Shown: in pieces, positions 19,674-48,523 of the stretch
Numbering within the stretch: position 1 is the first letter of the stretch
How the letters are laid out: each line of letters begins with the position of its first letter
Source of the DNA: Dendronalium phyllosphericum CENA369
GTDB taxonomy: Bacteria > Cyanobacteriota > Cyanobacteriia > Cyanobacteriales > Nostocaceae
NCBI RefSeq assembly: GCF_016056275.1
Contig: NZ_JAECZA010000023.1
Location: forward strand, 1-64,000
DNA length: 64,000 bases
Direction: 5' to 3'
Made by a program: the position numbers and the translations under genes
Notes under the pieces: generated by a model
What the model was told of the DNA's origin: nothing
The model's input: the letters and a program-made list of their open reading frames with translations, nothing else
Databases searched by the model: none

Positions 19674-19884
19674 GGTAACTTTCGATTTAATTTGAGGGTT
19701 TGATATTTTGGTTAAGAGTAGAGTTTCTCTTCAAACCTGACAAAATACCTATACTCTCAGATATTAGTTAACAAGGTAAGTTAAAGTGCCAGGACTTTTA
19801 CACTACTGGCAATAGGTTAAAAAAACCTCACGGAAAACCTTAAAAGGATTTTAAGGACTTATTGTTCTAAGCGATCGCCTAAGC

Positions 19885-19970
19885 GCAGAAACTTACTCCA
19901 GCCGTAATAGCTCCCGTTTGTTTACCCTTCATGACAAAAGCTTGTGCTACACTCCTTTTAAGCGCATACT
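19885..19970 (-). pseudogene. Relic containing KQTGAITA (copy 1)
   Basis: Minus-strand frame LEYALKRSVAQAFVMKGKQT, then GAITA, aligns with 30055-30140 (shared DNA block CTCCCGTTTGTTTA and ACATACTCAAG-like end). No full gene of this family is in the window. The two copies sit just before the two large clusters (starts 20014 and 30189). The gap 19674-20013 holds nothing else. Confidence 0.45.
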
Positions 19971-20013
19971 CAAGCTGTATCCAGCATCAACCTTCGCTTT
20001 CACTAGCCCTGCT

Positions 20014-21777: not shown

Positions 21778-21801
21778 CCCACTGCAACGACATCACAGAA
21801 A

Positions 21802-21972
21802 ATGAGTGTTGTGGCTAAGGCTGTAGATGAGATTGAGAGTAACCCGACACTGAAAGCACGGGTGATAGGTGCGTTGAAGGCTGGGGGAACCGAAGCATTT
21901 AAAGAGCTAATCGACCATCCTTTAGTGAATATACTGCTGGCATCAATCGAGGGGTGGCAGGAGGCGGAGTAG
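21802..21972 (+). pseudogene. Separated C-terminal domain of the preceding pentapeptide protein
   Basis: In frame with the gene ending at 21777. It begins at an ATG that is also an internal Met in the paralog: MSVVAKAVDEIESNPTLKAR, then VIGALKAGGTEAF, then HPLVNILLASIEGWQEAE. The same block ends the FGE-fold protein at 36658 and many cyanobacterial pentapeptide proteins. It could be made as a 56-aa stand-alone protein by reinitiation, or it is dead sequence. Only a few codons and one stop separate the two parts. Confidence 0.65.
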
Positions 21973-25429: not shown

Positions 25430-26851
25430 ATGCCGGATTCACAAGACTCAAAGCAAGTCAATAACGACTTACGCAATGCCCAGTTTGGCGGAGGTTTGAT
25501 TAATGCTGAGTCTGTAAATGCTGGGCGAATAGGCGGCGATATCTACAATATTCACATTGGGCAGCAGGCAGAAGCATCGAGTAACCCAGCCTCATCGCCA
25601 AACCAACAACAGCGATCGCAGCAAGAACGAGGCTCACTGGAAAAAGCTTACACGCTGCAAAGCCAAAAAGTAGCAAGCATAAGAACCGCATGGGTAATCG
25701 AGACAGACCCATCGCGCAAGTTTCAATACGAACAGCAGCTTCAAGCAGAGGAACGCACACTCAAAGAACTTACTGACAAATTGGATGCAGTTGAACGACA
25801 GTTGCAAGCTGATGATAACTCTAGACTAGATGTAGGTGCAGACATATATATTGAAAGACCTCCAATTGAGGACAAATGCCATAACGCAATTATGCAGCCT
25901 GGGGCATTAATCCGCATCAAAGCCCCCCAAAGAATGGGGAAAACTCTTTTACTAGAGAAAACATTAGACCATGCCAGAGGGCAGGGTTATCAAACAGCAA
26001 AGCTAGATTTAAAACTAGCTGATGCTGACATTCTGGCTACCCTAAAAACATTCTTACAATGGCTTTGCATTGATGTTGCTGACAGCTTGGAACTAGAACC
26101 ACAACTAGACAAACACTGGCAAGAAGTGTTTGGGCTGAATAAAAACTGTACTCGCTATTTTCAAAAATATTTATTATCGGTAACTAATTCTCCCCTAGTT
26201 TTAGCAATAGACAATTTTGAGCGACTGTTTGATTATCCAGAGATTTTCCCTCAATTCTGCTTGTTACTGCGGGGATGGTATGAAGCAGCCAAACAAGGAG
26301 ACAAGATTGGTAATATCTGGAAGAAACTACGCCTTGTGGTGGTTCACTCAACTGAATCTTACCCTTCCTTAGACACTAATCACTCCCCATTTAATGTGGG
26401 ATTGGCGATTGACCTGCCCGAATTTAATCCCCAACAAGTAGCAAACCTCGCCAAACAGCACGAGTTAGGACTGCTAGGAGAACTGGCCTTAAAAGAGTTG
26501 ATGGGGTTAGTAGGGGGACATCCTTACTTGGTACAGTCTGCGATAACTTCGTTAAGCTCCGCTAACGCTTACCTCAAAAACCCGCAAACGACCTTAGAAG
26601 AACTCTTGAGGCTTGCACCAACAGAACAAGGAATTTTCAGCGACCACTTGCGGCAACAACTGTGGCATTTACAACATAATCCTCAGCTTGAGATAGGGTA
26701 TAAAAAAGTAGTAATGAATGAAATACCTGTCAGGCTAGACACTGAAGTAGCATTCAAGTTACATAGTTTAGGGTTAGTAAAACTTTCTAGTAATGATTGC
26801 GTTCCCAGTTGTGATTTATATCGTCAATACTTCTCAAATCGTTTGGGGTAG
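25430..26851 (+). CDS. Motif-bearing AAA-35-type STAND NTPase
   Basis: 473 aa. The N-terminal motif starts at Gln18 (QFGGGLINAESVNAGRIGG). A helical, charged segment follows (about 62-130: LEKAYTLQSQKV...TDPSRKFQYEQQLQAEERTL), nearly the same as in the TIR-NACHT protein at 41495; this is likely an effector-associated adaptor domain. The AAA-like domain (PF14516 type) has its P-loop at 165-172 (APQRMGKT), and LVLAIDNFERLFDYP acts as the Walker B region. No enzymatic effector is present, so this is a switch or adaptor. The next AAA-35 gene starts 7 bp after the stop. Confidence 0.75.
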   Translation: MPDSQDSKQVNNDLRNAQFGGGLINAESVNAGRIGGDIYNIHIGQQAEASSNPASSPNQQQRSQQERGSLEKAYTLQSQKVASIRTAWVIETDPSRKFQYEQQLQAEERTLKELTDKLDAVERQLQADDNSRLDVGADIYIERPPIEDKCHNAIMQPGALIRIKAPQRMGKTLLLEKTLDHARGQGYQTAKLDLKLADADILATLKTFLQWLCIDVADSLELEPQLDKHWQEVFGLNKNCTRYFQKYLLSVTNSPLVLAIDNFERLFDYPEIFPQFCLLLRGWYEAAKQGDKIGNIWKKLRLVVVHSTESYPSLDTNHSPFNVGLAIDLPEFNPQQVANLAKQHELGLLGELALKELMGLVGGHPYLVQSAITSLSSANAYLKNPQTTLEELLRLAPTEQGIFSDHLRQQLWHLQHNPQLEIGYKKVVMNEIPVRLDTEVAFKLHSLGLVKLSSNDCVPSCDLYRQYFSNRLG

Positions 26852-30054: not shown

Positions 30055-30140
30055 TTCCCCACAGCCGTAATCGCTCCCGTTTGTTTATCTTTCACAACAG
30101 AAATATTGCGCTCTTTTGCGTAAAACCACATACTCAAGAT
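30055..30140 (-). pseudogene. Relic containing KQTGAITA (copy 2)
   Basis: Minus-strand frame LSMWFYAKERNISVVKDKQT, then GAITAV; homologous to 19885-19970. It abuts copy D of the Rep-like fragment at about 30050, so two unrelated gene tails are joined here. Confidence 0.45.
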
Positions 30141-30188
30141 GTAAGTTCCATAGAAAACAGTGCTGTTGGCCAACTCCAGCCCCAATTC

Positions 30189-32483
30189 ATGAATACTCAA
30201 GCAACTCAGAAAATTCTACTGTTAGCTGCCAATCCCATCGGCAGCCAAAATCTCCGTCTGGGTGAAGAGATGCGAGAAATTGAGGAGGGGTTAAAAAGGT
30301 CAAGGAATCGAGAACTGTATTCTATAGCCACAGCCCAAGCAGTACGCTATCGAGATATCCGCAGGGCGATACTAGAACACGAACCGCAGATTATTCATTT
30401 TTCAGGACATGGAGCAGGAGAAGAAGGTTTAGTTTTTGAGGATGAAACCGGAGCAGCCAAGTTAGTTGATGCACAAGCGTTAGCTGGACTGTTCCAACTG
30501 TTTTCGGGACAAGTAGAATGTGTAGTGCTTAATGCGTGCTATTCCCAGGTACAGGCAGAAGCGATCGCGCAACACATTCCTTGTGTCATTGGGATGAACA
30601 AAGCGATTGGAGATCGGGCAGCGATTGAGTTTGCCGTAGGGTTTTATGATGCGTTGGGAGCGAAAAAATCCTATGAATTTGCCTACAAGCTTGGCTGTAA
30701 TGCAATTAGAATGGCAGGAATACCAGAACAAGATATTCCAACTCTCTTGAAAACTGCTCAGATTGAGCCAATGTCTGCAAAGGCTCAATCACCTCAACGC
30801 ACTTCGTCTGGTGTCTCAACGACTCAGTTTGATGTTTTCTTAGCGCATAATACCCAAGATAAACCTGAAGTTAGAGCGATCGCACTTGCACTCAAACAGC
30901 GAAATATAAAGTCTTGGATAGATGAAGAACAAATTCCACCAGGGCGTTTCTTTCAAGAAGAGATACAAAAAGCAATTTCATCTGTTAAATCTGCTGCTAT
31001 ATTTATTGGTCTTCAAGGAATAGGAAAATGGCAAAACTGGGAACTAAAAGCATTCATATCACAGTGTGTTGAGAAAAAAATTCCTGTGATTCCTGTACTG
31101 CTTCCAGGTGTTAATAATTTACCCGAAGATTTGATTTTTTTGAAAGAGTTAAGCTGGGTAATTTTCTCTAATGGAATTGATGACGAGAATGCTTTAGATT
31201 TATTGGAATGGGGCATAACTGAAAAAAAACCAAAGAACAGAGAAAAACTGGAGCAGGAGCAAAGGCCGGCAAGAATTCCGACACAAGAGCTTATTACAAG
31301 TATCTCTGACTTATCACCAGAGCAAAGAGAGCGATTGCAGCAAGAAAGAAACTTGTTACATATCCTGACACAGAGCCTCAATACATGTAGCAACGATAAT
31401 GAGCTACATCTGTACAAAACCACGATTAATACTGCTTTACGGCGCTGTAATCCTCAAGGAAGCGATCGCTCTTGGCAACAGCAGCTACAGGATTTGAGTA
31501 ATCATCCTGCTCCCATTGGTTGGGAAACTGAAGGCAAGCTTGTCTACTTTGTGATGATGTTAGCTTGGATGAAAGACACGCCAACATCCACCTTAGAAGA
31601 ACTCAAAGCTTGGGTAGAGCTATGGGAATATAGCGGACATAAATATAAATATTCTGATTTATTTGTTCGCATTGATGACGAAATGAGACAGAAGAAAATC
31701 TCACCCAGTAATGAATGTGAATGCGTCATGGTGGCCGTTGAGCAAGTAGAGACATCAACGGATCAGTTGCGTGTGTCCCTATGGGCTGTTCCCAATCGCG
31801 AAACCTATAAACGGCACAATCCACCAATGCCGCTTGTCCTGGAAGAAGTGCTTTCGCGTCAAGAACTACCTGCATTTGTACGTAAAAAAATTCGGGACAA
31901 GCTTCGGAAAGAGCCTACTCCAACTATTCATTTGTTTGTGCCACGGATGTTTTTTGGTGACAACTTTGAGATGTTACCAAGTAGCCGTGTTGGTGCTGTT
32001 CTAGGTAATGAATACCCACTTGTTGTCCGCACAAACTTAAAGATTCACCCAATTGGATGGTACTATTACGACGATTGGCATGAAAAATGGCAACAGATTG
32101 AAGAAGCTTTTGAAAATAATATCTGCGACGTGGCTAAGTTCATAGACTGTTCGCTGCCAGAAAAAGATTTGATTCCAGAACTAGCAACAACTGATGCGGT
32201 GGTTCTGAAAAACTGTGATTCTGTAGGTAGCTGGTTTGATTTGATTGCAGAAGAGACAGCGTTACCAGTAGCACTGTGGTCGCGCGATCCTCTATTTCAA
32301 GACCAGTTGGCTAGAGTACTCGACGACTGCATTGTGAAAAATTTACCCGATCGCATTCATCAGGAACGCAAGACAGCGCATAAGTCTACAATCAAATCTG
32401 TGCTGGGTCATCATCTTAGCCTAGTATGGGAAGATCCAAAAATCGTGCCTCCCAATATGCAATTTGATTCGGAGATGTGTTGA
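30189..32483 (+). CDS. CHAT-TIR-VMAP protein (vWA-MoxR-associated conflict effector)
   Basis: 764 aa from the ATG at 30189, where CHAT similarity begins (MNTQATQKILLLAANPIG). CHAT about 8-190: HFSGHG with catalytic His74, and LNACYS with Cys117. TIR about 211-350: TQFDVFLAHNTQD, and the NADase-type Glu285 in WELKAF. The remaining 400 residues match the VMAP C-terminal domain in layout (VMVAVEQV, IHLFVPRMFF, LPVALWSRD near the end). VMAP proteins link effectors to MoxR/vWA chaperone pairs in ternary conflict systems. Two potential effector activities, protease and NAD cleavage, in one chain is notable. The MoxR gene starts 4 bp downstream. Confidence 0.85.
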   Translation: MNTQATQKILLLAANPIGSQNLRLGEEMREIEEGLKRSRNRELYSIATAQAVRYRDIRRAILEHEPQIIHFSGHGAGEEGLVFEDETGAAKLVDAQALAGLFQLFSGQVECVVLNACYSQVQAEAIAQHIPCVIGMNKAIGDRAAIEFAVGFYDALGAKKSYEFAYKLGCNAIRMAGIPEQDIPTLLKTAQIEPMSAKAQSPQRTSSGVSTTQFDVFLAHNTQDKPEVRAIALALKQRNIKSWIDEEQIPPGRFFQEEIQKAISSVKSAAIFIGLQGIGKWQNWELKAFISQCVEKKIPVIPVLLPGVNNLPEDLIFLKELSWVIFSNGIDDENALDLLEWGITEKKPKNREKLEQEQRPARIPTQELITSISDLSPEQRERLQQERNLLHILTQSLNTCSNDNELHLYKTTINTALRRCNPQGSDRSWQQQLQDLSNHPAPIGWETEGKLVYFVMMLAWMKDTPTSTLEELKAWVELWEYSGHKYKYSDLFVRIDDEMRQKKISPSNECECVMVAVEQVETSTDQLRVSLWAVPNRETYKRHNPPMPLVLEEVLSRQELPAFVRKKIRDKLRKEPTPTIHLFVPRMFFGDNFEMLPSSRVGAVLGNEYPLVVRTNLKIHPIGWYYYDDWHEKWQQIEEAFENNICDVAKFIDCSLPEKDLIPELATTDAVVLKNCDSVGSWFDLIAEETALPVALWSRDPLFQDQLARVLDDCIVKNLPDRIHQERKTAHKSTIKSVLGHHLSLVWEDPKIVPPNMQFDSEMC

Positions 32484-32487
32484 CACT

Positions 32488-33627
32488 ATGAGCGATGAAA
32501 CTCAACAGGCTCAAGCCAGTACGGAAATACTATTCAATCCGATTTTCCAAGGGAGCGCAGAAGAGCGATTTAAACCCGAAGACCCACTACCACTACCCCC
32601 TGCCCCCACTTGGCGACGGGCTACACGCCGTAAGGAAGAACGGGGAAAAACATTTCAGGTACGCCCCGAAGAAATTGAAATGGTAAATGCGGCACTCTAT
32701 CTGCGACGGCCTCTGCTAGTAACAGGCAAACCCGGCACTGGCAAGACATCCCTGGCTTATGCTGTTGCCCACGAACTAGGAATGGGTGAAGTTCTCTACT
32801 GGCCAATTACTACCCGGACAACTCTTCGAGATGGACTGTATCTTTATGATGCAATATCTCGTCTGCAAGATGCCAACAGTTCGCGTCCTCGTGATGGGAA
32901 CTCAGGAGAAGGCGACGATCGCTTCGATAACATTGGTAATTATATCCGCCTAGGGCCATTAGGAACGGCCTTAGTTCCTGCTAGAAAACCGCGCATTTTA
33001 ATTGTTGATGAAATAGATAAAAGCGATATCGATCTGCCAAACGATTTGCTCTACGTCTTTGAGGAAGGAGCATTTGAAATTCCAGAGCTGGTGCGGATTG
33101 AAAATATCAAATCCGAAGTAGAAGTACGGACAGCTTACAAAGACGAGCAAGAGTTTACATTCAACGATAACTATAAGGTTGAAGCAGGTAAAACTGTAAT
33201 TGAAGGTGGCAAGGTAATTTGCGAAGAATTTCCACTGATGATTTTGACTAGTAATGGTGAGCGTGACTTCCCGGCTCCATTCTTGCGTCGATGTGTGCGT
33301 CTAACTATGGAAGAACCAAATGAGAAGCGTTTGGAGCAAATTGTCAATGCTCACCTGCAACAACAAGTGGAGCAAGATAGCAAAGACGATAAAGAAATAA
33401 GCGTTCCGTCAGCAGCAGATATTCAAAAACTCATTGAAGATTTCGTCAAAAAGCGGAGCGATCGCAGTCGCGGCGATTTAGCTACCGATCAACTCTTAAA
33501 TGCAGTATATCTGGTAATGAGTGAGCGCGACCCAGATTTGAAAAGCCGAGAAGACTTGATTAATCGCCTATGGAAACATCTCAGCAGCAGCGAGGATCAA
33601 CAGTCGAACAGTTTGCGAAAACGTTAG
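32488..33627 (+). CDS. MoxR-type AAA+ ATPase of the ternary conflict system
   Basis: 379 aa from the ATG at 32488 (MSDETQQAQAS). Walker A is GKPGTGKT at 80-87, Walker B ILIVDEIDKSD around Asp174-Glu175, sensor 1 LTSNGERDFPAPFLRRCVR. MoxR ATPases remodel partner proteins, usually with a vWA-domain partner. Here the partner is the SAV_2336-type protein, whose ATG at 33570 lies 58 bp inside this gene in another frame, indicating translational coupling. It sits directly after the VMAP gene, so the three form a typical ternary set. Confidence 0.9.
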   Translation: MSDETQQAQASTEILFNPIFQGSAEERFKPEDPLPLPPAPTWRRATRRKEERGKTFQVRPEEIEMVNAALYLRRPLLVTGKPGTGKTSLAYAVAHELGMGEVLYWPITTRTTLRDGLYLYDAISRLQDANSSRPRDGNSGEGDDRFDNIGNYIRLGPLGTALVPARKPRILIVDEIDKSDIDLPNDLLYVFEEGAFEIPELVRIENIKSEVEVRTAYKDEQEFTFNDNYKVEAGKTVIEGGKVICEEFPLMILTSNGERDFPAPFLRRCVRLTMEEPNEKRLEQIVNAHLQQQVEQDSKDDKEISVPSAADIQKLIEDFVKKRSDRSRGDLATDQLLNAVYLVMSERDPDLKSREDLINRLWKHLSSSEDQQSNSLRKR

Positions 33628-36600
33628 CAGAAGCCAAACTGGATTTCGATGCTATCGATTTAGTTGATATCCTTTGGCTAGCTCAATTTATCGAGCCAGC
33701 CAGGTCTTTGCAGGCAGAAGATCCCCAAGGGCAAACAACGGTTAAACAAAGCCAAAAGCATACTCCGAAAATTGACCACCGTAAACCTACACTTAATCTG
33801 TATCCTAGTGACCCCTCATCTCCGCAGAAGCCAGAAACCATCGCTACTGAACAGAATTTAGAACAAAAAGTTGAGAAACAAAGCGGCACTCCGTTTTCAG
33901 TTCCCGCAGCGCCAGCATTGCGAAACCGACTTGATTTGGCGCGATCGCTCCGCCCTCTGATGCGAAAAGTACCATCACGAAACCGATTTGAATTAGATGA
34001 AGATGCCACAGTAGCACAAATTGCCGAGACAGAGGTTTGGTTGCCCGTAGTACGTCCAGTCGCAGAACGCTGGTTACAACTAGATTTAGTGGTCGAAGAA
34101 TCGAAGACAACCGTAATCTGGGAACGGGCAATCATGGAACTGAACCATTTAGTAGAATATCAAGGAGCGTTCCGATCTGTTCGGACTTGGCGATTGTCTA
34201 CCCAAACGGGAAAAGTACAGTTGTTTTCCCGGTGGCGTGATGCCTCAATTCATTCTGTGGCAAAGACCGAACCAGTAATAAATCAACGTTCTCATACTCC
34301 AGGTGAACTGATTGACCCCACAGGGCGAAGCTTGATTTGGTTAGTAACAGATTGTACATCAACACTTTGGCGGCAAAACCAGATTTACGAAACACTGCTT
34401 GCTTGGAGTAAGGTACAGCCGATAGCCATCTTTCAAATGTTTCCAGAAAGATTATGGTCAAGAACCGCATTGCGCGATGGGCATATTGTCAAGTTAGGAG
34501 CGTTGGTTCCGGGCTTATTGAGTAATCAGTTGGTAATCGAAGGTTTGCCCCAACGTCTAGAACAGCGTAATCATGAGGACTTGGTTACTGTTTCTATTAT
34601 TACTCTTGATGCTGCGTCAATGTTACTCTGGGCAAGAGTAGCCTCTGGCTTTGGGGATTATCGTACACCAGGGCGAACTTTTGACTTGTCTTTTATTCGT
34701 AGGCAAGCAGAAAAAGGAAAATCAGACTCCTCACCACGCTCAAGCTTAGAACGGACTGCCCAGGAGCGAGTGGCACTGTTTCGCTCAACAGCTTCCAAAA
34801 CAGCGCAGCAATTAGCGGATTTAATGGCTGCAACTCCAGTAACTTTGCCCGTAATTGACCTGTTACGGGATGCATTTCGTGGTGATTTTCAGGAGGAGGT
34901 ACAACAATCTCATATAGCAGAAGTACTGCTCAGTGGTCTCTTGCGGCGTTGTGATACAGAAGAAGAGAATGTATGCCGTTACGAGTTTTGGGGCGATAAC
35001 TCGCCTGATGGAGAAGAGCGAGTACGTCATATTTTGCTGGGAGATACATCGATATTAAAGACAATTGAGGTGTTGAATGTCCTATCAGCATCGATTTGTC
35101 AAAAACTGGGCAGTCCCTCTAAAACTTTTGAGGCGTTACTTGGTGATATACATACCTTAAATAGCGATCAATCGGTTGCTGTCTTACCTTTTGCTAGAGT
35201 GGGCTTAGACGTAATGCGCCGTTTGGGAGGTAAGTATGCTGCATTAGCAGATAAATATATTTCTGTAACTGAACCAGAAGTACAGCTCCTAAAAATCTTG
35301 CAACTTCAAGAATTTACATTTGAAGTCGCAACCATCATGATTGAGGAAGATACAGGCTTTACTTCAGTACAGCAACTAAAAAACCCAAGAAGCCAAAGAC
35401 AAAGGATAGCTCTAATATCAATTGAGGGAGATCCGGCATCAGATAACATTGGGGCAGGAGAGATAGCAGGACAAGATATTTATGTCCATTACGTAGGTAA
35501 AGCACTAGCCCAATTGGGATGGCAAGTTGATATATTTACCCGTAAAGTGAGTGCGGAGCAAGACGCGATCGTTCAACACAGTCCAAATTGTCGAACTATT
35601 CGTTTCAAAGCAGGTCCACTAGAGTTTATACCGCAAGATAATCTTTTTGGCTACTTGCCAGAATTTGTGGAGAATTTGCTGAAATTCCAAAAAGAAAACA
35701 GCATCACTTATGAGATAGTTCACACCAACTATTGGCACTCTAGCTGGGTAGGTATGCAGTTGAAGAAAATTCAAGGGAGTAAACAAGTTAACACATACCA
35801 TTCTTTAGGAGCAATTGAGTACAGGACTATAAAAAATATTCCTTTAATTGCTACTCAGCGTTTAGCTATAGAGAAGGCAATATTGGAAACCGCAGAACGA
35901 ATTGTAGCTACGAGTCCGCAGGAAAAACAAAATATGCGATTGCTAGTTTCTACCAAAGGCAGTATTGATATCATTCCCTACGGTACAGATATTCAGCACT
36001 TTGGCTCGATTACACGAGAAGTAGCTAGATTGTTAATGGGAATCGACAAAGAAACCAAAGTTGTATTGTATGTCGGTCGTTTTGATCCACGCAAAGGTAT
36101 AGAAACATTAGTGCGTGCAGTCAATGAATCTCAATTACGGGAGTCCAACAACCTCAAGTTAATCATTGGTAGTGGTAGCACTCCTGGTAATAGCGACGGA
36201 CTTGAGCGCGCTCGCATTGAACAAATTGTCAACGAATTGGGAATGGGTGACTTTACCACCCTTCCTGGTCTTCTTAGTCAGGAAATTTTACCAACTTATT
36301 ACGCTGCCGCGGATGTTTGCGTTGTACCCAGCCACTACGAACCTTTTGGCCTTGTGGCAATTGAAGCGATGGCAAGTGGTACGCCAGTGATAGCTAGTGA
36401 TGTCGGTGGACTTAAGTTTACAGTAGTTCCCGAAGAAACAGGTTTGTTAGTACCACCTCAAGATGTAGCTGCTTTTGCATCTGCCATTGACCGAATTTTG
36501 TTGAATCCAGAGTGGCGAGATGAATTAGGTAAAGCTGGCAGAAAGCGTGTAGAAACCAGATTTAGCTGGGATGTTGTAGTATCTCAACTCAGCGAACTTT

Positions 36601-36650
36601 ACACCCATTTATTGGAACAGACAGTTAAAAAGCCGCCTTTACTAGAGTAA
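33570..36650 (+). CDS. SAV_2336-type vWA-like protein fused to a GT4 glycosyltransferase
   Basis: 1026 aa in one uninterrupted frame. Residues about 1-110 start with a helix (TVEQFAKTLAEAKLDFDAID) and a low-complexity linker. About 110-590 matches the SAV_2336 N-terminal family that pairs with MoxR (LARSLRPLMRKVPSR, WLQLDLVVEES, VRHILLGDTS). From about 612 a complete GT-B glycosyltransferase of family GT4 follows (sucrose-phosphate-synthase-like start, then PYGTDIQHF, YVGRFDPRKGIETL, and the EX7E motif EPFGLVAIE, Glu924/Glu932). It ends normally near 1015. The GT4 half looks catalytically complete and may be the output domain (inference). A GT in this position is unusual to my knowledge. Confidence 0.85.
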   Translation: METSQQQRGSTVEQFAKTLAEAKLDFDAIDLVDILWLAQFIEPARSLQAEDPQGQTTVKQSQKHTPKIDHRKPTLNLYPSDPSSPQKPETIATEQNLEQKVEKQSGTPFSVPAAPALRNRLDLARSLRPLMRKVPSRNRFELDEDATVAQIAETEVWLPVVRPVAERWLQLDLVVEESKTTVIWERAIMELNHLVEYQGAFRSVRTWRLSTQTGKVQLFSRWRDASIHSVAKTEPVINQRSHTPGELIDPTGRSLIWLVTDCTSTLWRQNQIYETLLAWSKVQPIAIFQMFPERLWSRTALRDGHIVKLGALVPGLLSNQLVIEGLPQRLEQRNHEDLVTVSIITLDAASMLLWARVASGFGDYRTPGRTFDLSFIRRQAEKGKSDSSPRSSLERTAQERVALFRSTASKTAQQLADLMAATPVTLPVIDLLRDAFRGDFQEEVQQSHIAEVLLSGLLRRCDTEEENVCRYEFWGDNSPDGEERVRHILLGDTSILKTIEVLNVLSASICQKLGSPSKTFEALLGDIHTLNSDQSVAVLPFARVGLDVMRRLGGKYAALADKYISVTEPEVQLLKILQLQEFTFEVATIMIEEDTGFTSVQQLKNPRSQRQRIALISIEGDPASDNIGAGEIAGQDIYVHYVGKALAQLGWQVDIFTRKVSAEQDAIVQHSPNCRTIRFKAGPLEFIPQDNLFGYLPEFVENLLKFQKENSITYEIVHTNYWHSSWVGMQLKKIQGSKQVNTYHSLGAIEYRTIKNIPLIATQRLAIEKAILETAERIVATSPQEKQNMRLLVSTKGSIDIIPYGTDIQHFGSITREVARLLMGIDKETKVVLYVGRFDPRKGIETLVRAVNESQLRESNNLKLIIGSGSTPGNSDGLERARIEQIVNELGMGDFTTLPGLLSQEILPTYYAAADVCVVPSHYEPFGLVAIEAMASGTPVIASDVGGLKFTVVPEETGLLVPPQDVAAFASAIDRILLNPEWRDELGKAGRKRVETRFSWDVVVSQLSELYTHLLEQTVKKPPLLE

Positions 36651-36657
36651 TAAATAA

Positions 36658-38064
36658 ATGCCAATGATAGTTATAAACCGAACACAAAAAACAGCACAAT
36701 ACTATGTAGAAAACTTGGGTAATGATATTGGGTTAGAGATGGTGCTGATTCCTGGGGGTAGTTTTTTGATGGGTTCCCCAAAAGATGAACTAGAGCGTTA
36801 TGATTCAGAAACCCCTCAGCATTCAGTAAACATTCAGCAATTTTGCATAGGCAAGTATCCAATCACTCAAGAGCAGTGGAGAGCAGTAGCAGCACTACCG
36901 CAGATCAGTAGACAACTAAAACCTGACCCGTCAGAATTTAAAGGGGATAAGCGACCTGTAGAGCGAGTGTCCTGGTACGATGCAGTAGAGTTTTGCGATC
37001 GCTTGACTGCCCATACAAAAAGAAATTACCGTCTACCCAGTGAAGCAGAATGGGAATATGCGTGTCGTGCTGGCACAACAACACCATTTCATTTTGGTGA
37101 AACAATTACAACTGATGTTGCCAATTATAGAGGTATGGATAATGAAAAAGAAAAATGGTCAGGTTCTTATGGTCGAGGGACAAAAGGAATTTATCGGGCA
37201 CAAACAACAGAGGTAGGTAGCTTTAAGGTTGCGAATGCTTATGGACTTTACGATATGCATGGAAACGTTTGGGAATGGTGCGCCGATCATTGGCAAACAG
37301 ATTATCAAGGAGCGCCTATAAATGGTGGTGCATGGTTAACTACTGAAAATAATAGTCTACGGCTACTGCGAGGTGGTTCTTGGCGTTACGTTCCAGCTTA
37401 CTGCCGTTCCGCCCATCGAAACTCTCGTGAACCTAACAGCCGCTTTTCTAATATTGGTCTTCGAGTAGTGTGTGATATTTTCACTGCTAGTCCGCAACAT
37501 AATCCCAGTTTACAAGATAATACTCGCAGGCAAGCATCAGAGACAGATTCTAAAAAAATCTCTAACAACTACTTACCCAATTCTCAGTTTGGTGGTGGGT
37601 TGATTAATGCTGACACAGTAAACGCTGAGCGTATTGGTGGCGATATCAACAACGTTCAAGGTGATAACAACCAACAACGTGTGAGTAACAAAACCTCTAA
37701 CTTCAACCTGCAAAATGCTCAATTCGCAGGCGGTCTAGTCAACGCCGACACTGTAAATGCAGGGCAAATCGGCGGCAACATCACCAACTACAACACTGAG
37801 GAGCGTCAGAACCTCGCCCAAGCCGCAGCAGAGATTCAGCAGCTTCTCAACCAACTGAGCCATTCATACCCGACTGCAACTACTTCAGAGAAAATGAGTG
37901 TTGTGGCTAGAGCAGTTGATGAGATTGAGAGTAACCCAACTTTAAAAGCACGGGTGATAGGTGCGTTAAAGGCTGGCGGAACGGAGGCATTTAAAGATCT
38001 AATCGACCATCCTTTAGTGAATATACTGTTGGCTTCAATAGATGAATGGCAGGAAGCCGAATAG
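36658..38064 (+). CDS. FGE-sulfatase-fold protein with two signalling motifs
   Basis: 468 aa. FGE/SUMF1 (C-type-lectin-like) domain at about 15-280: MVLIPGGSFLMGSP, ITQEQWRAVA, RLPSEAEWEYACRAGTTTPF, YDMHGNVWEWCADHW, LLRGGSW. The first of the two copper-binding cysteines of true formylglycine-generating enzymes is absent (GGSWRYVPAYC), and the end reads GLRVV. A binding rather than oxidase role is therefore likely. Two copies of the shared motif follow, at Gln310 and Gln355, exactly 45 residues apart. The conserved AAAEIQQLLNQLSHS...KAGGTEAF...HPLVNILLASIDEWQ tail closes the protein. It starts 7 bp after the SAV_2336-GT4 gene. The 239-272 stretch looks like a diversity-generated region. Confidence 0.85.
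   Translation: MPMIVINRTQKTAQYYVENLGNDIGLEMVLIPGGSFLMGSPKDELERYDSETPQHSVNIQQFCIGKYPITQEQWRAVAALPQISRQLKPDPSEFKGDKRPVERVSWYDAVEFCDRLTAHTKRNYRLPSEAEWEYACRAGTTTPFHFGETITTDVANYRGMDNEKEKWSGSYGRGTKGIYRAQTTEVGSFKVANAYGLYDMHGNVWEWCADHWQTDYQGAPINGGAWLTTENNSLRLLRGGSWRYVPAYCRSAHRNSREPNSRFSNIGLRVVCDIFTASPQHNPSLQDNTRRQASETDSKKISNNYLPNSQFGGGLINADTVNAERIGGDINNVQGDNNQQRVSNKTSNFNLQNAQFAGGLVNADTVNAGQIGGNITNYNTEERQNLAQAAAEIQQLLNQLSHSYPTATTSEKMSVVARAVDEIESNPTLKARVIGALKAGGTEAFKDLIDHPLVNILLASIDEWQEAE
37372..37473 (+). other. Candidate diversity-generating-retroelement variable region
   Basis: Encodes the end of the FGE fold, GGSW-RY-VP-AY-CRSA-H-RN-SR-EPN-S-R-FS-NIGLRVV. The positions that vary in known cyanobacterial FGE-type DGR targets are here codons of the form NNT or NNC (CGT, TAC, GTT, GCT, TAC, CAT, TCT, CGT, AGC, TTT, TCT). 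All could derive from AAT or AAC by adenine changes only, while the framework codons (TGC CGT TCC GCC) are constant. No reverse transcriptase or template repeat is in the window. Confidence 0.45.
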
Positions 38065-38100: not shown

Positions 38101-39360
38101 ATGGCGAATGAGGAGCATTTAGCAATACTGAGGCAGGGAGTTGAAGTTTGGAATGAGTGGAGAAATAAATATCCTAAAGTAAGACCTGATTTGAGTGGAG
38201 CTAAACTGAATAATGCTAATTTGAGAAAAGCCAATTTTGAAGAGACTAACTTTAGTGGAGCAGAACTTTGTGGAGCTAATCTTCATGATGCTTACCTTCA
38301 TAAAGCTATACTTAGCTCAAATAAATATCAAGACACAAAACTGATAGAAACTGACTTGAGTAAAGCAACTCTTAATGATGCAAAACTTGTAGCAGCCGAT
38401 CTTACTAAAGCAAACTTAACACAAACATATCTTATTAATACAAATTTTAATGGTGCTACACTTATAGACATTAACCTTAAAAAAGCTTTCGTTTCAGATA
38501 CAAACTTTTCTCTTACTAACTTGAAAGGAACTAATCTTAGCAACATAAGTCTGACTGGTACAAATTTTGAAGAGGCAGATTTAAGAGAAGCTAACTTTAG
38601 TAAAACAAACCTTTATCGCTCAAATTTAAGAAAGGCTGATCTTGCAAAAGCTAATTTATTTGAAGCTGATTTAACACAAACAAGCTTATATGATGCAAAT
38701 TTAAGAGGTGCTTGTCTAACTGGATCTTGTATAAAAGACTGGGGAATTAATGCTTTTACTAATCTTGATGCAATAGTTTGCGACTACATCTACCTCGACC
38801 AAAAACAACAAGAACGCCGCCCCAATAGTGGTAATTTCGCTCCTGGAGAATTTGCTAAACTGTTCCAAAAATCCTTAGAAACAGTAGACCTAATCTTTCG
38901 CAACGGCATTGATTGGGATGCTTTCGCATATTCATTCAAAAAAGTAGAAGTTGAAAATCAAAGTACATATCCTATAGTTACAACTATTGAACTTATAAGT
39001 GATGGTATTGTTTTAGTAAAAATAGCTGTTACCCCTGATGCAGACAAAGCGAAAATCCATAACGAATTTATGCAGGGATATGAATTTGCAGCTAAAGTAT
39101 TAGAAGCACAATACCAAGCAAGACTTCAAGATAAAGATGCAGTAATTGTCAGACAAGAAGCACAAATTAATCGTCTGTTTGACATAGTAGAACAACAAGG
39201 GTCAGTTCAAAAAGCACTAACAGAAAATCCTAGGAAAATTTCTAACACCAATATAATAAATTCTAAGTTTGCAGGCGGTATGGTGGATGCGATTAATGTT
39301 GACGCACAGCAAATCGGTGGTAACATTCAAAACAAAGACACTGAAGACTTCTCAAGCTGA
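38101..39360 (+). CDS. Pentapeptide-repeat protein with C-terminal signalling motif (cassette B)
   Basis: 419 aa, soluble. A short helical start (EEHLAILRQGVEVWNEWRNK) leads into continuous A(N/D)LxxA repeats about 25-210, longer than in the cassette A paralog and without membrane helices. Then comes the conserved module (CDYIYLDQKQQERRPNSGNF, then FRNGIDWDAFAYSFKKVEVE) to about 360. The motif at Lys389 is a variant (KFAGGMVDAINVDAQQIGGN). It ends DTEDFSS, almost the same as DTEDFPS in the paralog at 22074. The NACHT gene starts 3 bp after the stop, as in cassette A. Confidence 0.8.
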   Translation: MANEEHLAILRQGVEVWNEWRNKYPKVRPDLSGAKLNNANLRKANFEETNFSGAELCGANLHDAYLHKAILSSNKYQDTKLIETDLSKATLNDAKLVAADLTKANLTQTYLINTNFNGATLIDINLKKAFVSDTNFSLTNLKGTNLSNISLTGTNFEEADLREANFSKTNLYRSNLRKADLAKANLFEADLTQTSLYDANLRGACLTGSCIKDWGINAFTNLDAIVCDYIYLDQKQQERRPNSGNFAPGEFAKLFQKSLETVDLIFRNGIDWDAFAYSFKKVEVENQSTYPIVTTIELISDGIVLVKIAVTPDADKAKIHNEFMQGYEFAAKVLEAQYQARLQDKDAVIVRQEAQINRLFDIVEQQGSVQKALTENPRKISNTNIINSKFAGGMVDAINVDAQQIGGNIQNKDTEDFSS

Positions 39361-39363
39361 CCC

Positions 39364-41412
39364 ATGGCTGACTCCCAAGATCCGAAGCAAGTCAATAACA
39401 ATGACTTACGCAATGCCCAGTTTGGCGGCGGGTTTATTAATGCTGAGAATGTTAATGCTGGCAGAATCGGCGGGGACATTTGGAATATTTTCTTCGGGCA
39501 GCAGACAACACCAGTAGGTAATCCAGCTAGACCAAAGAATGAGCGTTTATTATTAGCCGCAGTCAAGGAAGAAGTGACTGCACGGTTAAAACAATCTCTA
39601 CACAATGCCGTGCTGATTAATTTGGGTAAGGAGTCACAACCTCAGCAGGTAAAGCGACCTTGGGATGCTGACATAAAAATTGGTTTAAAGCCTGCTGAAC
39701 CTCTCCTAGATACGACAACAATTTTAGAAATTTTTGACCAGGAAGAAATTGCAGGTAAGTTGTTAATTTTAGGTAATCCTGGTGCTGGTAAAACTACTAC
39801 AACATTAGATTTAGCAAAAGCCTTGATTACACGGGCAGAAAAAAAAGCTGATTACCCTATTCCGGTACTATTTAACCTCTCGAATTGGAAGAATGATAGA
39901 CAGTTGATACATGATTGGTTAGTAGCAGAATTAAAATCGAAATATGGGGTGCGAAAGGATATTAGTAGTAAGTGGCTGGATAATGCTAAGTTACTACCCA
40001 TGTTAGATGGTTTAGATGAATTGGAGCCAGTACGTCAGGAACCATGTGTAAGAAAGATTAATGAATTTTTACAAAGCGATTACCGTCCAAAGTATTTACT
40101 GGTGTGTAGCCGTTGGGAGGAGTATGCTAACTATCACGAAAGACTTCAACTAAATGGTGCAATATGCTTACGATTACTTAGCTATCACCAAATTAAAAGT
40201 TACTTGGCTAATTTAAATAGAACGCAGCTTTGGCAATTTTTACAAACTGATACAACATTACTAGAACTAGTACGTAAACCATTAATGCTGAGTATAATAA
40301 TACTCTCTTATGAAGAGTTGGCAACAGAAAGGTGGATAAATTTAACGTCAAATATATCACCCTTAGAATATTTACTAAATGCATATATACGACAAATGAT
40401 GTCTCGAAGTTTAGTAAATCAGATGTACAGTAAACAGGAAGCTTCAGTTACAAAGTGGATGCAACGGTGGCTGGCGTTTCTAGCACAGTATTTGCAGAGT
40501 AGTTCAAAGACTGAATTTTCCATTGATGATATACAAGCTGGCTGTTTCCAAACCATCGCTCAGAAACGCATATATTATTTCACTATTAAAATTGCTTTGT
40601 GGTTATTTAGCGGCTTTATTGTAGGATTAATTTTTGGTAAAAACTTTGGGTTAGTTAGTGGCTTTGTAATTAGCCTAATTATCAATTTATCTGAAACAAT
40701 ACAATTGGCTGATAAAATAAAATTTTCCTTTAACAGGTTAATAGTTGGTTGTAAACTAGGCTCATTTATAGGTGCTATTGGTGGATTTTTATATAGTTTT
40801 TTATTTGCCCTATATATAGCAATAGCAATTGATGGAATCAAAAATATTAATATCTTAACATTTCTGGTATTTTGGGCAGTACTGACTATATTTTTAACAA
40901 TTATTTTTAGCGTTTCAAGTGGATTAATTTTTGGAATATTTTTAAGTTTGATAAAGGAAGAATTTGAAATAAAGTTTATACCAAATCAAGGAATTATAAA
41001 TTCATTTAAGAATGCGATAATATATAGTATGTTTAGTGGATTAATACTAGGAATAACATGGAGTTTAATATATATAGTTTTTCCAGGGAATAATTTGATA
41101 AAAATTGATGAACCTGATGTTTATGTTATGGGAACCACTGAAGCTTTAATAAATGTAGCTATTATTAGCGGTTTAAAATTTGCTGTTTCCAGTGGTTTGG
41201 CTATTTGGTTACTTTGTGGTGGTTTTACCTGCCTTCAGCACTTCGTCTTGCGCCTCATCCTCCACTTCAACGGCTACATCCCTTGGAACTACGCCCGTTT
41301 TCTCGACTACTGCACCGAGCGTATGCTGCTCCAGCGTGTCGGCGGCCGCTACCGCTTCATCCACAAGCTGCTGCAAGACCACTTTGCCCAAATGGAGTTC
41401 AAGCGAGATTAA
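39364..41412 (+). CDS. NACHT NTPase with N-terminal signalling motif and membrane region (copy 3)
   Basis: 682 aa paralog of 12323 and 23433. Motif from Gln19 (QFGGGFINAENVNAGRIGG), P-loop GNPGAGKT at 137-144, DGLDE at 215-219. The middle (about 405-625) is a large AT-rich hydrophobic region with at least five likely membrane helices (for example SGFIVGLIFGKNFGLVSGFV) and is longer than in the other copies. The last 55 codons are again nearly identical and GC-rich. It is translationally linked to the upstream pentapeptide gene (3-bp gap). Confidence 0.8.
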   Translation: MADSQDPKQVNNNDLRNAQFGGGFINAENVNAGRIGGDIWNIFFGQQTTPVGNPARPKNERLLLAAVKEEVTARLKQSLHNAVLINLGKESQPQQVKRPWDADIKIGLKPAEPLLDTTTILEIFDQEEIAGKLLILGNPGAGKTTTTLDLAKALITRAEKKADYPIPVLFNLSNWKNDRQLIHDWLVAELKSKYGVRKDISSKWLDNAKLLPMLDGLDELEPVRQEPCVRKINEFLQSDYRPKYLLVCSRWEEYANYHERLQLNGAICLRLLSYHQIKSYLANLNRTQLWQFLQTDTTLLELVRKPLMLSIIILSYEELATERWINLTSNISPLEYLLNAYIRQMMSRSLVNQMYSKQEASVTKWMQRWLAFLAQYLQSSSKTEFSIDDIQAGCFQTIAQKRIYYFTIKIALWLFSGFIVGLIFGKNFGLVSGFVISLIINLSETIQLADKIKFSFNRLIVGCKLGSFIGAIGGFLYSFLFALYIAIAIDGIKNINILTFLVFWAVLTIFLTIIFSVSSGLIFGIFLSLIKEEFEIKFIPNQGIINSFKNAIIYSMFSGLILGITWSLIYIVFPGNNLIKIDEPDVYVMGTTEALINVAIISGLKFAVSSGLAIWLLCGGFTCLQHFVLRLILHFNGYIPWNYARFLDYCTERMLLQRVGGRYRFIHKLLQDHFAQMEFKRD

Positions 41413-41494: not shown

Positions 41495-44400
41495 ATGCCA
41501 GATTCAGAAGAACCGGAGAAAGTCACCAACAATAATTTGCAGAATGCCCAATTTGGTGACGGATTAATTAATGCTGAGACAGTAAATGTCGGGCAAATGG
41601 GCGGTAACGTATACAATATTCACCTTGGACAGCAGCAGGCAGCACCAAATAATACACCCTCATCACCGCAGCAAAAAGAGCGATCGCAGCAAGAACGAGA
41701 CTCACTGGAAAAAGCTTACACGCTGCAAAGGCAGAAAGTTGAAAGGATACAAAACGCATGGGTAATTGAAACAGACCCATCCCGCAAATTTCAGTATGAA
41801 CAACAGCTTCAGGCAGAGGAGCGCACATTACAAGAACTTGGTGACAAGTTGCTTGCAATTGAACAAAAGCTTTTAGAACTTGATAATCAACAGACAAAAG
41901 CCAATACAAGTATAGACGTTGAACCTTCGCCAATAGAAGACAAAAGCAACGCAATTATGCAGCCTGGAGCTTTAAGAAGGAATGCGTCAACGACTCAGTT
42001 TGATGTTTTCTTAGCGCACAATACCCAAGACAAACCTCAAGTCAGAGCGATCGCACTTGCACTCAAACAGCGAAATATAAAGCCTTGGCTAGATGAAGAA
42101 CAAATTCCACCAGGGCGTTCATTTCAAGATGAGATACAACAAGCAATTCCACTGGTTAAGTCTGCGGCTATATTCATTGGTTCACAAGGATTAGGGCGTT
42201 GGCAGAGTTGGGAGTTAAAGGCATTCATAGCAGAGTGCGTTGAGAAAAAAATCCCTGTAATTCCTATATTGCTACCTGGAGTAAACAATTTACCCGAAGA
42301 TTTAGTGTTTTTGAAGCAGCTAAGGTGGGTTGCTTTTACCAATGGAGTTGAAGACAAGGCTGCTTTAGATTTGTTGGTGTGGGGGATAACTGGAGAAAGA
42401 CCAGAGAGTAGCGCACAGTTAGAGCAAAAGCCTGGAGAAATCCCACCCAAAAAAGTTTTAGAAGAAGTTGAGAGCTTAGGAATTGACTGGCATCAAGTTA
42501 GCTCCTCACTGTTAGATGAGCATCTGCGACTGACAACAAATCCGCTAACATCTGGCGAGGGGATTACCTACCGAACCGATCAGGTGTATGTACCATTGGG
42601 ACTGGTAGAGCGTAAAAAGCAACCTCGGCGAAAAGAGGATGTTACACCAGAGAAAGGTTCAGAACTTTATCACGAAACAGAAATTACACAAACATTTCAG
42701 CATCAACAATTTTTAGAGCAGGTACTAAGAGACAGACAAAGCCCCAAAAGCCAGGGAAAACGCATTGCGATTATCGGAGAACCAGGAGCAGGAAAAACAA
42801 CCTTATTGCAGCAAGTAGCTAAATGGGTATCGAAGCAGATAGAGCAGTCTGTTGTGATTTGGGTGTCTCTGGCTGATCTGCGATCGCATGACCTGGAATC
42901 ATATTTATTAGAGGTATGGTTGCAAGCAGTGGCCAGGAAAGCTAGACAAGCTGAAGCATCTACTTTGGTTAAAGATGATTTTGTAGCACAATTTAACCGA
43001 GGGTTAGTGTGGCTGGTACTGGATGGGGTTAATGAAGTGCAAGGCAACCCGTTAGAAGATATTAATCGGCAGATTCGCCAAGGGAGCTTGCTACAACAGG
43101 CGCGGATTGTACTTTCTTGTCGCTTAAATCTTTGGGACAATGGCATTAACGATCTGCTGGAGTCCTTTGATAACTACCGAACCTTGGATTTTTCCTATCC
43201 TCAGCAAGTAGAGGAGTTTATTTGCAAATTTTTTAGCTCCCAATCGCCAGCAGAAATTCAGACAGGACAGCAGTTGTGTATGGCGTTAAGGGAACCAGCG
43301 AAGGAAAGGATTCGAGATTTAGTAAAGAACCCATTAAGGCTAACATTATTGTGTTTCATCTGGTATTTAGGTGAGGGTAATTTACCTCAGACTAAAGCAC
43401 AGTTGTACGAGCAATTTGTCGCGGATTTTTATAAGTGGGAGAAAAAGCCATCTGCGAAGACAAGGGAGCAATGCAGGCGTTTAAATGTGGCTTTAGGTGA
43501 ATTGGCGCGAGATGCTATTGATAAAGAAGCAATGCGGTTTCGCTTCCGGCAGGAATTTGTATGCGAGTATTTGGGTGATCCAGATGATATAGATTCCTTA
43601 TTTGCGATAGCGTTACGGTTGGGATGGCTAAACAAAGTGGGTGTAGAGGCAGAAAATCATAGAAAATCAGTGTATGCGTTTTTCCATCCGACTTTTCAGG
43701 AGTATTTTGCAGCCTCAGTAATAAATGATTGGCATTATTTTTTCAATCACATTCCTGAAAATCCGAGTCACTTAGATGCTAATTATAGAGTTTTTGAGCC
43801 ACAGTGGAAAGAGGTTTTACTGCTATGGTTAGGAAGAGATCCTCAAAATGAACTGGATGAACAAAAAGAACAATTGCTGAATGCTCTTGCAGATTTTGAA
43901 GATGGTTGTAGCGATATAAATTTGTATGGATATCGTGCAGATTTGCTAGTAGCTGTAGGCATTGGTGAATTTTATCACTTTAGTCGGACTAAAGAAGTAA
44001 TTGAAAATGTTTTTAGGCAAGGCGTTCATGAAATAGAAATATTCAATAACCCTTTTGCTGCTGCTGCCAGAAAAACGCTTCAAGAGATGAACCCATCAGT
44101 ATTATCGAATAAATTAGCTATTCTCATAAGTTCAGAGGATACTATAGTTCAACATGATGCTGCAAAACTAGCAGGTGAATTAAGAATAAGAGATTTGCAA
44201 CTAATTGATGCTCTCACTCGACTGGCTCAAACAACGAAATTTAAAGATACTAAATGTTATACTTTATCTAGTTTATTAAAGCTAGACTCTAGTAATTCCT
44301 ACGCTATTGATAGCTTAATTGATGTACTTAATACAGAAGAATATCCTATAATTGCGATTCAAAGTCTAGGTGGAGCCAACATTGGTAATATAAAAGTAAT

Positions 44401-46012: not shown

Positions 46013-48523
46013 ATGTCTCGGCTAATTTCTGAGCAAATAAACTACCAATTTTTACTCCTTACACATATGGTATGTGCTGATGAGCAAATTCATAGCGAGG
46101 AAGCAAAGACGCTACGAGAGTTAGCACAGAAAGCAAACATGGGAATACATACCATTGAAGAAATGGAGAAAATATTGAATCAAGATGAAAACTTTATATC
46201 TGTTGAGAATGTAGCACGTCAAATTCAACAAGGTGAGCAAAGTGAGGCAATGCGACAGATGTTAGCTATTGCCTATATTGATGGTTATTTTTCCCCTTTA
46301 GAACGGGAGATGATAGAACATATTGCAAAAGTTTGGAACTGGTCGAATTTAGAAATCGAAAGGTTGCTTGAACAAACCGAAAAATTTGGTAGAGCTAAAC
46401 TCATTAGTAACAATAGAGATGAAGCTGAATTATCTGTTGGCGCGCGTCTTTTAAAGGGGATAGATTCGGTTTTATCTCGTGCATTAGTAGATAATTTAGC
46501 AAAAGTTGCTCCTGATAATGTTGGACGTAAAATTGACCAATTGCGGAAAGAAATATTATTAGCAGGGCCTGAATATGAAAATGCTATCCAGCAATGTACA
46601 GTTGTAGCAACTGAAGATTATAAATTTGCGGAAAATTCCCTAAAAAGTGCTTATTCTGCTCTTAGAGTATTAGCTAAAAATCTTAAAAGATATACTGAAG
46701 AGATACAGCAAAAAACAAGTAGTCAAGGACAAGCTAACACTGCGAAGGAAGTAGCAAAACAGCTTGAAAGTACCAGGAATGCTTTAATAGTTGAAGCTCT
46801 AAAAGAGCTTGAAGGAGTACATGAATCGCTACGCGCAAAACAACGTGCTTTAAAGCATTTTAGCATAGCTTTCATAGGTAAAACTAAAGCAGGCAAAAGC
46901 ACTCTCCACGCAATTATTACAGGTGATGGCTGGGACGCTATCGGTGTAGGTAAACAGCGTACTACTCGTTTTAATCGGGTTTATGAGTGGAAAAATATTC
47001 GTATCATTGATACTCCTGGAATTGGTGCGCCTGGAGGTAAAAGTGATGAAGAAATTGCTGAGAGTATTATCGATGAATCTGATGTTATTTGTTATGTAGT
47101 CACAAATGATAGCATTCAAGAAACAGAATTTAAATTTTTGCAACTTTTAAAAGAAAAAGCCAAACCCTTAATTATATTACTTAACGTTAAAAATAATTTG
47201 AGAGACACTCGAAGGTTAGAACATTTCTTAAAAGATTCAAATAAGTTGTTTGTAATGGATAGTGCAAGTGGTTTAGGTGGACACATTGAACGCATCCGTC
47301 GCTATGCCAAACAGCATTATGCTAACGACTACTTTGATATTATTCCTGTAATGCTTCTGGCTGCACAAATGTCACGAGAGTCAGAGCATCAACAAAATAA
47401 AAGCAAACTATTTAAAGCAAGCCGCATACAAGATTTCCTGGATGCTATTCGAGTATCTTTAGTTGAACATGGAGGAATTAGGCGATCGCAAACTTTACTC
47501 GGTTCTACAGTTGGTGCAATTGAAGCTCCTAACAAATGGGTAACTCAACAATTACAAGCTTATCAAAACTTGTCCAAAAACTTGAAAAGTATACGTAATA
47601 AATTTCAAGAGGAAATCGCCAAAGCATCTATAAGCAATCAAGAATACTTAATAGAAAAAATTAATACAGTTTTTAAAGATATATTCGATACAATTCAACC
47701 CTTTGCAGAAGAAAATTGGGATAACGATGAAAATCAAATGAAATCAAAATGGGAAGGTAAACTAAAAATATTAAAATTTCAAGACAGATTGAATAATGCT
47801 TTTGAAGAAAGTGGAAAAAAGTTTAATCATGAAGTTGAAGAATTACTAGAAGAAATTGGGACTGAATTGCAATTAATGGCTAGGTTAGTAGAGGGAAATT
47901 TTCATTTCAAAAAAAATATTAACATAAATTTTAAAGATATGCTACGTATTGGGGCTGCTATCATAAGCATTGCCGCAAGTATCACAATGCTTTTTGCTGC
48001 GCCTCCACTTGGAATTATTATGGTCATCGGTACTATTATTAGTGGAATTACTAATTTTTTCAAATCTCAGAAAGAGAAACAACGTGAAGCAGCAGAAAAA
48101 ATTAGTCAATCTCTAAATAAACAATTAAAAGAGTATCAACAGAAAACACTATCAAAAGCAGAAGAAGAATTTTCTTGTTATTGTGATGCTGTTGCACTTA
48201 ATATCAACGGTTATTTTAATGAATTAATTCAAGGCATAGAAAAAATAAATAATCAACTTGCAAAAACTAAAAATCAATTAGACAGTTCTGCTAATTATCT
48301 CAATCGTGCTTACGCAAAACGAATAACTGACTGGTGTAGTGATAAATACGAGCAATTAACAGATGAATGTATTATTGAAACTATTTCTAAAGTAGAACGT
48401 AATTTTGGACGAAATATAAAAATTCAAGTCAAATCTGTATTTAAGCAGACGAAAATACAAGAAGAAATTAATCAAATAATACAAGAAAATGTTTATATTA
48501 GTTTGATAGATCCATCCAAATAA
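46013..48523 (+). CDS. TerB-like domain fused to a dynamin-type GTPase
   Basis: 836 aa. Residues about 1-130 form a TerB-like helical domain (YQFLLLTHMVCADEQIHSEE, and AIAYIDGYFSPLEREMIEHI). The GTPase core has G1 GKTKAGKST (289-297), G3 DTPG (333-336) and NVKN as a degenerate G4. Long coiled helices follow, then two adjacent membrane-inserting segments (about 641-680, IISIAASITMLFAAPPLGII), as in bacterial dynamin-like proteins. It probably binds and remodels membranes. The next gene is a second dynamin-like GTPase, and such proteins usually work in pairs. Bacterial dynamin pairs have been linked to stress, toxin secretion (LeoABC) and phage defence; which applies is open. Confidence 0.8.
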   Translation: MSRLISEQINYQFLLLTHMVCADEQIHSEEAKTLRELAQKANMGIHTIEEMEKILNQDENFISVENVARQIQQGEQSEAMRQMLAIAYIDGYFSPLEREMIEHIAKVWNWSNLEIERLLEQTEKFGRAKLISNNRDEAELSVGARLLKGIDSVLSRALVDNLAKVAPDNVGRKIDQLRKEILLAGPEYENAIQQCTVVATEDYKFAENSLKSAYSALRVLAKNLKRYTEEIQQKTSSQGQANTAKEVAKQLESTRNALIVEALKELEGVHESLRAKQRALKHFSIAFIGKTKAGKSTLHAIITGDGWDAIGVGKQRTTRFNRVYEWKNIRIIDTPGIGAPGGKSDEEIAESIIDESDVICYVVTNDSIQETEFKFLQLLKEKAKPLIILLNVKNNLRDTRRLEHFLKDSNKLFVMDSASGLGGHIERIRRYAKQHYANDYFDIIPVMLLAAQMSRESEHQQNKSKLFKASRIQDFLDAIRVSLVEHGGIRRSQTLLGSTVGAIEAPNKWVTQQLQAYQNLSKNLKSIRNKFQEEIAKASISNQEYLIEKINTVFKDIFDTIQPFAEENWDNDENQMKSKWEGKLKILKFQDRLNNAFEESGKKFNHEVEELLEEIGTELQLMARLVEGNFHFKKNININFKDMLRIGAAIISIAASITMLFAAPPLGIIMVIGTIISGITNFFKSQKEKQREAAEKISQSLNKQLKEYQQKTLSKAEEEFSCYCDAVALNINGYFNELIQGIEKINNQLAKTKNQLDSSANYLNRAYAKRITDWCSDKYEQLTDECIIETISKVERNFGRNIKIQVKSVFKQTKIQEEINQIIQENVYISLIDPSK

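Follow-up and report, generated by a model that had tools for sequence, protein, structure and literature searches.

The window analysed here, a 64,000-nucleotide stretch of DNA from Dendronalium phyllosphericum CENA369, contains an ORF for a protein with the formylglycine-generating enzyme (FGE) fold, a C-type-lectin fold. A preliminary description of this DNA had proposed that the gene may be the target of a diversity-generating retroelement (DGR), whose reverse transcriptase (RT) and template repeat (TR) would lie elsewhere in the genome. The question raised by this locus is whether the gene is a DGR target at present, descends from one, or never was one.

A variable-region-like stretch in an FGE-fold gene

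The ORF (36658-38064, + strand) encodes a 468-residue FGE-fold protein (PF03781, E 2.6e-57), a putative frozen DGR variable protein whose best homologs are 68-72% identical to it. The C-terminal portion of its FGE/C-type-lectin domain comprises a stretch of 34 codons (37369-37470, + strand; RGGSWRYVPAYCRSAHRNSREPNSRFSNIGLRVV) that resembles a DGR variable region (VR) and aligns without gaps to the 34-codon TRs and VRs of relatives. NNY codons occupy all 12 VR sites at which the templates of relatives usually read AAC or AAT. The sequence, coordinates and codons quoted in the preliminary description were correct, and its statement that the variable positions are NNT or NNC holds at each of these template-AAY sites. 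When the same 12 offsets were slid along six neighbouring genes, 12/12 NNY codons were obtained at 0.09% of positions; with the amino acids actually present taken as given, the P value was 0.03. The excess of NNY codons at the 12 sites is thus moderately above chance, and is owed in part to the choice of amino acids (Y, H, N, F, S). An NNR codon (GAA) occurs at one non-framework position, site 21, where many templates do not read AAY. The CRSAxRN framework, previously put forward as a mark of DGR variable proteins, is indeed common to the family, but it is weak evidence by itself, because CRSAxR is also present in FGE-fold proteins that have no neighbouring RT.

We considered the possibility that the protein is an enzyme, either a formylglycine-generating enzyme or a PvdO-like oxidase, as it belongs to the PF03781 fold family and has PvdO (5hha) as its best solved relative by sequence. 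Yet, in an alignment to solved FGEs, the first copper-binding Cys lies opposite a Tyr (in WRYVPAYC), in agreement with its reported absence, and only the second Cys is present. Furthermore, the gene resides in a conflict locus and is most closely related to DGR targets (see below). An enzymatic role appears extremely improbable on these grounds. The protein is also related by sequence (E 8e-26) to Treponema TvpA (2y3c), a DGR variable protein of the FGE type with a solved structure, for which we know of no conflict-locus context. An AlphaFold2 model of the FGE domain, based on 20 homologs, had a mean pLDDT of 53 and was set aside.

The gene belongs to a VMAP-MoxR conflict locus

The ORF is preceded, on the same (+) strand, by genes for a CHAT-TIR-VMAP protein (30081-32483; PF20028 VMAP-C, E 3e-30; TIR_2, 2e-17; CHAT, 3e-12), for a MoxR-like AAA ATPase (32464-33627; AAA_5) and for a protein in which a SAV_2336 N-terminal region is fused to a family-4 glycosyltransferase (33570-36650; NF041121, E 1.5e-109; GT4-conflict; Glycos_transf_1). 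The VMAP and MoxR genes are adjacent, and the order VMAP-MoxR-SAV_2336N-FGE is the same as in a Fischerella DGR locus (L095), where the FGE protein is 71% and the MoxR protein 55% identical to its counterpart in the window. The SAV_2336N part is 38% identical, over about 620 residues, to the SAV_2336N-FGE variable protein of L095. The SAV_2336N protein occupies the position of vWA in the ternary system, and there were zero vWA Pfam matches. The locus at 30081-38064 appears to be a VMAP-MoxR ternary conflict system.

With the VMAP-MoxR-vWA ternary systems with FGS domains (PMC7159879), the window locus has in common its VMAP, MoxR, SAV_2336N and FGE parts, arranged as in L095. About 80% of the VMAP ternary systems of cyanobacteria and gammaproteobacteria are linked to a DGR (PMC7159879), whereas the window locus falls in the DGR-less minority; it further differs in having a GT4 domain after SAV_2336N and an FGE encoded by a separate ORF with a motif-bearing tail. 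The DGR-diversified lectin domain has been proposed to be an antigen sensor that relays via MoxR to the VMAP effector (PMC10907252).

In Nostoc sp. FACHB-973 (L146, 366-4655), SAV_2336N, GT4 and FGE are fused in a single 1430-residue protein, a one-protein version of the window's two genes, which also continues past the VR without a 3' box.

The nearest homologs are DGR variable proteins

The nearest homologs of the ORF (up to 72% identity) are DGR variable proteins encoded beside a DGR RT and a TR, the best ones coming from related cyanobacteria such as Fischerella sp. PCC 9431 and Scytonema hyalinum. Their genes adjoin one for another FGE protein, of greater length, and one for a DGR RT with a GNLTSQ motif. 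Homologs beside both DGR RT and TR were found in genomes G004 (Fischerella PCC 9431), G005, G018, G027 and G044; the templates sit after the RT in these relatives' loci, and bAvd was confirmed at one homolog locus, in G018 (PF22296, 70 bits). Same-locus comparison of TR and VR in 28 pairs showed differences at 422 of the 832 template adenines but at only 19 of 2069 other bases; 24 of the 28 pairs had no non-adenine mismatch at all. These comparisons verify, at the sequence level, adenine-specific diversification in the FGE variable-protein family. The nearest homologs are verified targets in VMAP/MoxR conflict loci.

At the template-AAY sites, the window VR has 0/12 residues in common with L137, L136 and L144, the three homologs nearest to the window protein, as compared with 72-75% identity to them outside the VR. 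Over the six homologs compared, the residues in common at these sites ranged from 0 to 3 of 12, for 71-75% identity outside the VR. In a tree from which the VR was excluded, the window protein fell in a group of 10 rows, five of them from RT loci (SH-aLRT 91), and in one of six rows, three of them from RT loci (SH-aLRT 92); this tree resulted from a quick search, the branches round the window being supported by SH-aLRT values of 86-92 only, with no bootstrap. The RT-linked rows grouping with the window are short variable proteins. RT-bearing and RT-free loci are mixed across the tree, with 23 label changes, so that gain is not separable from loss everywhere.

The mixing of RT-bearing and RT-free loci would also be compatible with a gene that was never a DGR target, that is, an ordinary FGE-fold binding domain whose loops diverged normally and whose stock was separately recruited by DGRs. 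If this were so, the complete lack of common residues at template-adenine sites, next to 72-75% identity outside the VR, would be hard to account for, and we consider this explanation improbable. The ancestry of the ORF from DGR targets is well supported by the 0/12 residues in common with the nearest homologs, the 12/12 NNY codons and the fact that the homologs are DGR targets with adenine-specific TR-VR differences. We infer that the ancestor of the window gene was itself diversified.

Given the verified TR-VR pairs of its nearest homologs and its own hypervariable NNY sites, the gene is homologous to the DGR variable proteins of cyanobacteria or descends from them. It shares with the C-type-lectin (FGE/FGS) variable proteins of cyanobacteria (PMC7517822; clade 5E of PMC10907252) the domain, the VR framework, the neighbourhood and the hypervariability at template-adenine sites. 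It differs from them by the lack of an RT, a TR and bAvd in the genome, by the lack of a 3' signature and by an extension past the VR.

Search for DGR machinery in the genome

The assembly that was searched comprises 8.38 Mb in 338 contigs and is 100% complete by marker genes. No DGR RT was found in these 8.38 Mb, a result that the preliminary description itself had named as refuting its proposal and that does so as regards present-day activity. The RVT_1 matches were RTs of the group II intron type and one other non-DGR RT. With a model built from five DGR RTs of cyanobacteria, the best E value in this genome was 4e-8, on the non-DGR RT genes; the same model, run on 100 relatives, retrieved DGR RTs in 26 of them (E below 1e-60). 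Among the top RVT_1 matches in relatives, group II introns outranked DGR RTs, and the latter surfaced beside FGE homologs.

The template expected elsewhere in the genome did not materialize either. BLAST of the VR across the genome found none, an adenine-tolerant VR pattern matched only the VR itself, and a generic TR pattern, which fits 28/28 known TRs without mismatch, had zero matches in the genome even when two mismatches were allowed. For bAvd, no match in the genome exceeded the cut-off; matches below it were rejected as being, by sequence, ordinary four-helix proteins. Direct evidence of the loss, in the form of a close relative whose DGR is intact, was not found.

Against the best TR, the window VR has 21 mismatches at template adenines and 20 at other bases. 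For 29 RT-locus VRs, each set against its best TR from a different genome, the number of non-adenine mismatches was 17 at most. With 20 such mismatches, none of the known templates can be shown to have given rise to the window VR. Third codon positions hold 17 of the 20, which would fit silent drift after freezing and is taken as supporting only, as the lost template may also have differed; for the latter reason, the third-position mismatches were rejected as a proof of freezing. Non-adenine differences from TRs that are many and mostly silent would also be expected for a gene that was never a target.

The putative 3' landing signature is absent from the window gene

In RT-bearing loci, a stop codon was present within 15 residues of the VR in 43/43 variable proteins. 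The sequence AGGAYT occurred within 40 nt in 31/43, most of the others having a near variant (an AGGAYTC-like box), and pyrimidines made up at least 72% of the 40 nt past the stop in 42/43, typically as TAGCCCTTTACACTTTTGCCC. Most TRs have AGYRCTC-like letters at the box position. Its conservation, together with the analogy to known DGRs, suggests that the box region acts as an initiation-of-homing (IMH-like) landing site. In the window, the box, the stop and the pyrimidine tract are all absent from the corresponding position (37471-37530, + strand): none of them is found in the DNA 3' of the VR (TGTGATATTTTCACTGCTAGTCCG...), and the ORF runs 197 residues further. A C-terminal extension of this length (37471-38061, + strand), comprising two copies of a 31-residue motif and a helical-looking tail, stands in place of the landing region; it matched no Pfam family above the cut-off. 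The C-terminal module is present in 33 of 60 relatives. The 3' box and pyrimidine tract may offer a practical sequence test to tell live targets from relics.

We considered the possibility that the gene is a live target acted on from a distance, the RT and TR being present in the organism but missing from the 338-contig draft owing to a gap, an unassembled plasmid or loss in culture. Cyanobacterial targets located away from their RT are known (PMC7517822; PMC8195603), and NNY codons at all 12 VR sites would be in keeping with such a target. Yet RT, TR and bAvd are all missing from an assembly that is complete by marker genes, and the 20 non-adenine mismatches to the best TR exceed the maximum of the RT-locus VRs. 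In addition, a VR deprived of the 3' box, the stop and the pyrimidine tract should not be accepted as a target even if an RT exists. We therefore regard a live remote target as very unlikely.

The strict AGGAYT box is retained in 42/96 RT-free members of the family, and two paralogs in the D. phyllosphericum genome keep 3' relics, both of which argue against a family stock that was never targeted. One paralog, on contig C170 (34531-35265, L018), is a 705-residue FGE protein with a box-like GGGACTTAATAG and a pyrimidine tract, retained in a genome without RT; the DNA past its VR resembles the L040 target tract, with an 86% match over 51 nt. On contig C295, a degenerate VR tail, AATCGGTTTTCGTGTCGTCTCCGTTCCCGCGTCAGGACTTCC, lies past the stop of the FGE gene at 47466-48239 (L022) and resembles the 3' end of the L114 and L118 DGR targets. 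This second, out-of-place VR tail, which includes CAGGACTTCC and lies directly behind the stop, matches L114 (85% over 48 nt) and, as judged from this resemblance, is a DGR fossil. Because the C170 and C295 paralogs keep traces of the 3' signature, the genome probably once carried a DGR.

In another genome (G009:C1:318000-334000, L101), two FGE variable proteins retain the 3' box and have only 2 non-adenine differences from a Fischerella TR, with no DGR RT shown in G009. This locus has apparently undergone a recent loss of its DGR.

A presumably frozen former target

Since DGR RT, TR, bAvd and the 3' landing signature are all absent, the ORF is not taken to be a live target. The DGR reading of the preliminary description holds as to kinship, given nearest homologs that are verified targets and hypervariable NNY sites, but not as to a mechanism at work in this genome. 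We conclude that the ORF is quite probably a frozen former DGR target within a VMAP-MoxR conflict locus. The protein would be a C-type-lectin-fold sensor of this ternary system, with ancestors among variable proteins whose diversity was generated by a cyanobacterial DGR through adenine-specific retrohoming. The DGR, with its RT, bAvd and TR, would have been lost in this lineage, leaving a VR frozen with one binding surface and subject to silent-site drift as in ordinary coding DNA. The 3' landing site would have been overwritten by fusion to a C-terminal module common to neighbouring NTPase and pentapeptide genes, and the resulting sensor of fixed specificity might signal either via the MoxR and VMAP proteins or through the common C-terminal motif.

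A comparable case is all3226 of Nostoc PCC 7120, a dispersed variable-protein paralog that lacks a proximal RT and shows a remnant of TR-VR homology (PMC7517822). Like the window gene, it is an RT-less paralog, thought to retain a selected variant (PMC7517822); unlike it, it has kept TR-VR homology in an organism that still has two DGRs, whereas none is left here. Such former targets, lacking an RT in their vicinity, are already on record (PMC7517822), and the ORF would be one more case. If this interpretation is right, the locus is a clear example of the retirement of a hypermutation target, in which the mutation machinery has disappeared, the landing site has been overwritten, the binding surface is fixed and the gene is kept in a conflict locus. 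It would bear on whether DGR-diversified immune-type sensors are retained as receptors of fixed specificity after a useful variant has arisen, an idea already raised for cyanobacteria (PMC7517822).

A 31-residue motif common to the FGE tail and neighbouring proteins

The 31-residue motif (NNDLRNAQFGGGFINAENVNAGRIGGDIWN type) is present in nine copies across eight ORFs of the window, all on the + strand; zero copies were expected from shuffled ORFs. Two copies are in the tail of the FGE ORF (37561-37653 and 37696-37788), the others being at 12353-12445, 21604-21696, 23463-23555, 25457-25549, 39241-39333, 39394-39486 and 41525-41617. The motif is N-terminal in five NTPase ORFs (NACHT, TIR-NACHT, AAA_35) and C-terminal in the FGE ORF and in two pentapeptide ORFs. 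It matched no named family. Its layout recalls the amyloid signalling motifs of NLRs and their effectors, and its common presence on the FGE tail, the NTPases and the pentapeptide proteins suggests homotypic recruitment. A DGR-made sensor, once fixed, might then have been wired into a local NLR-like network by its two homotypic, possibly amyloid-type motifs, seeding or receiving a common signal; we offer this extension tentatively, as a doubtful though conceivable one. In one pentapeptide gene (19855-21969), a TAG codon lies within the C-terminal module, so that the motif is retained and the tail removed.
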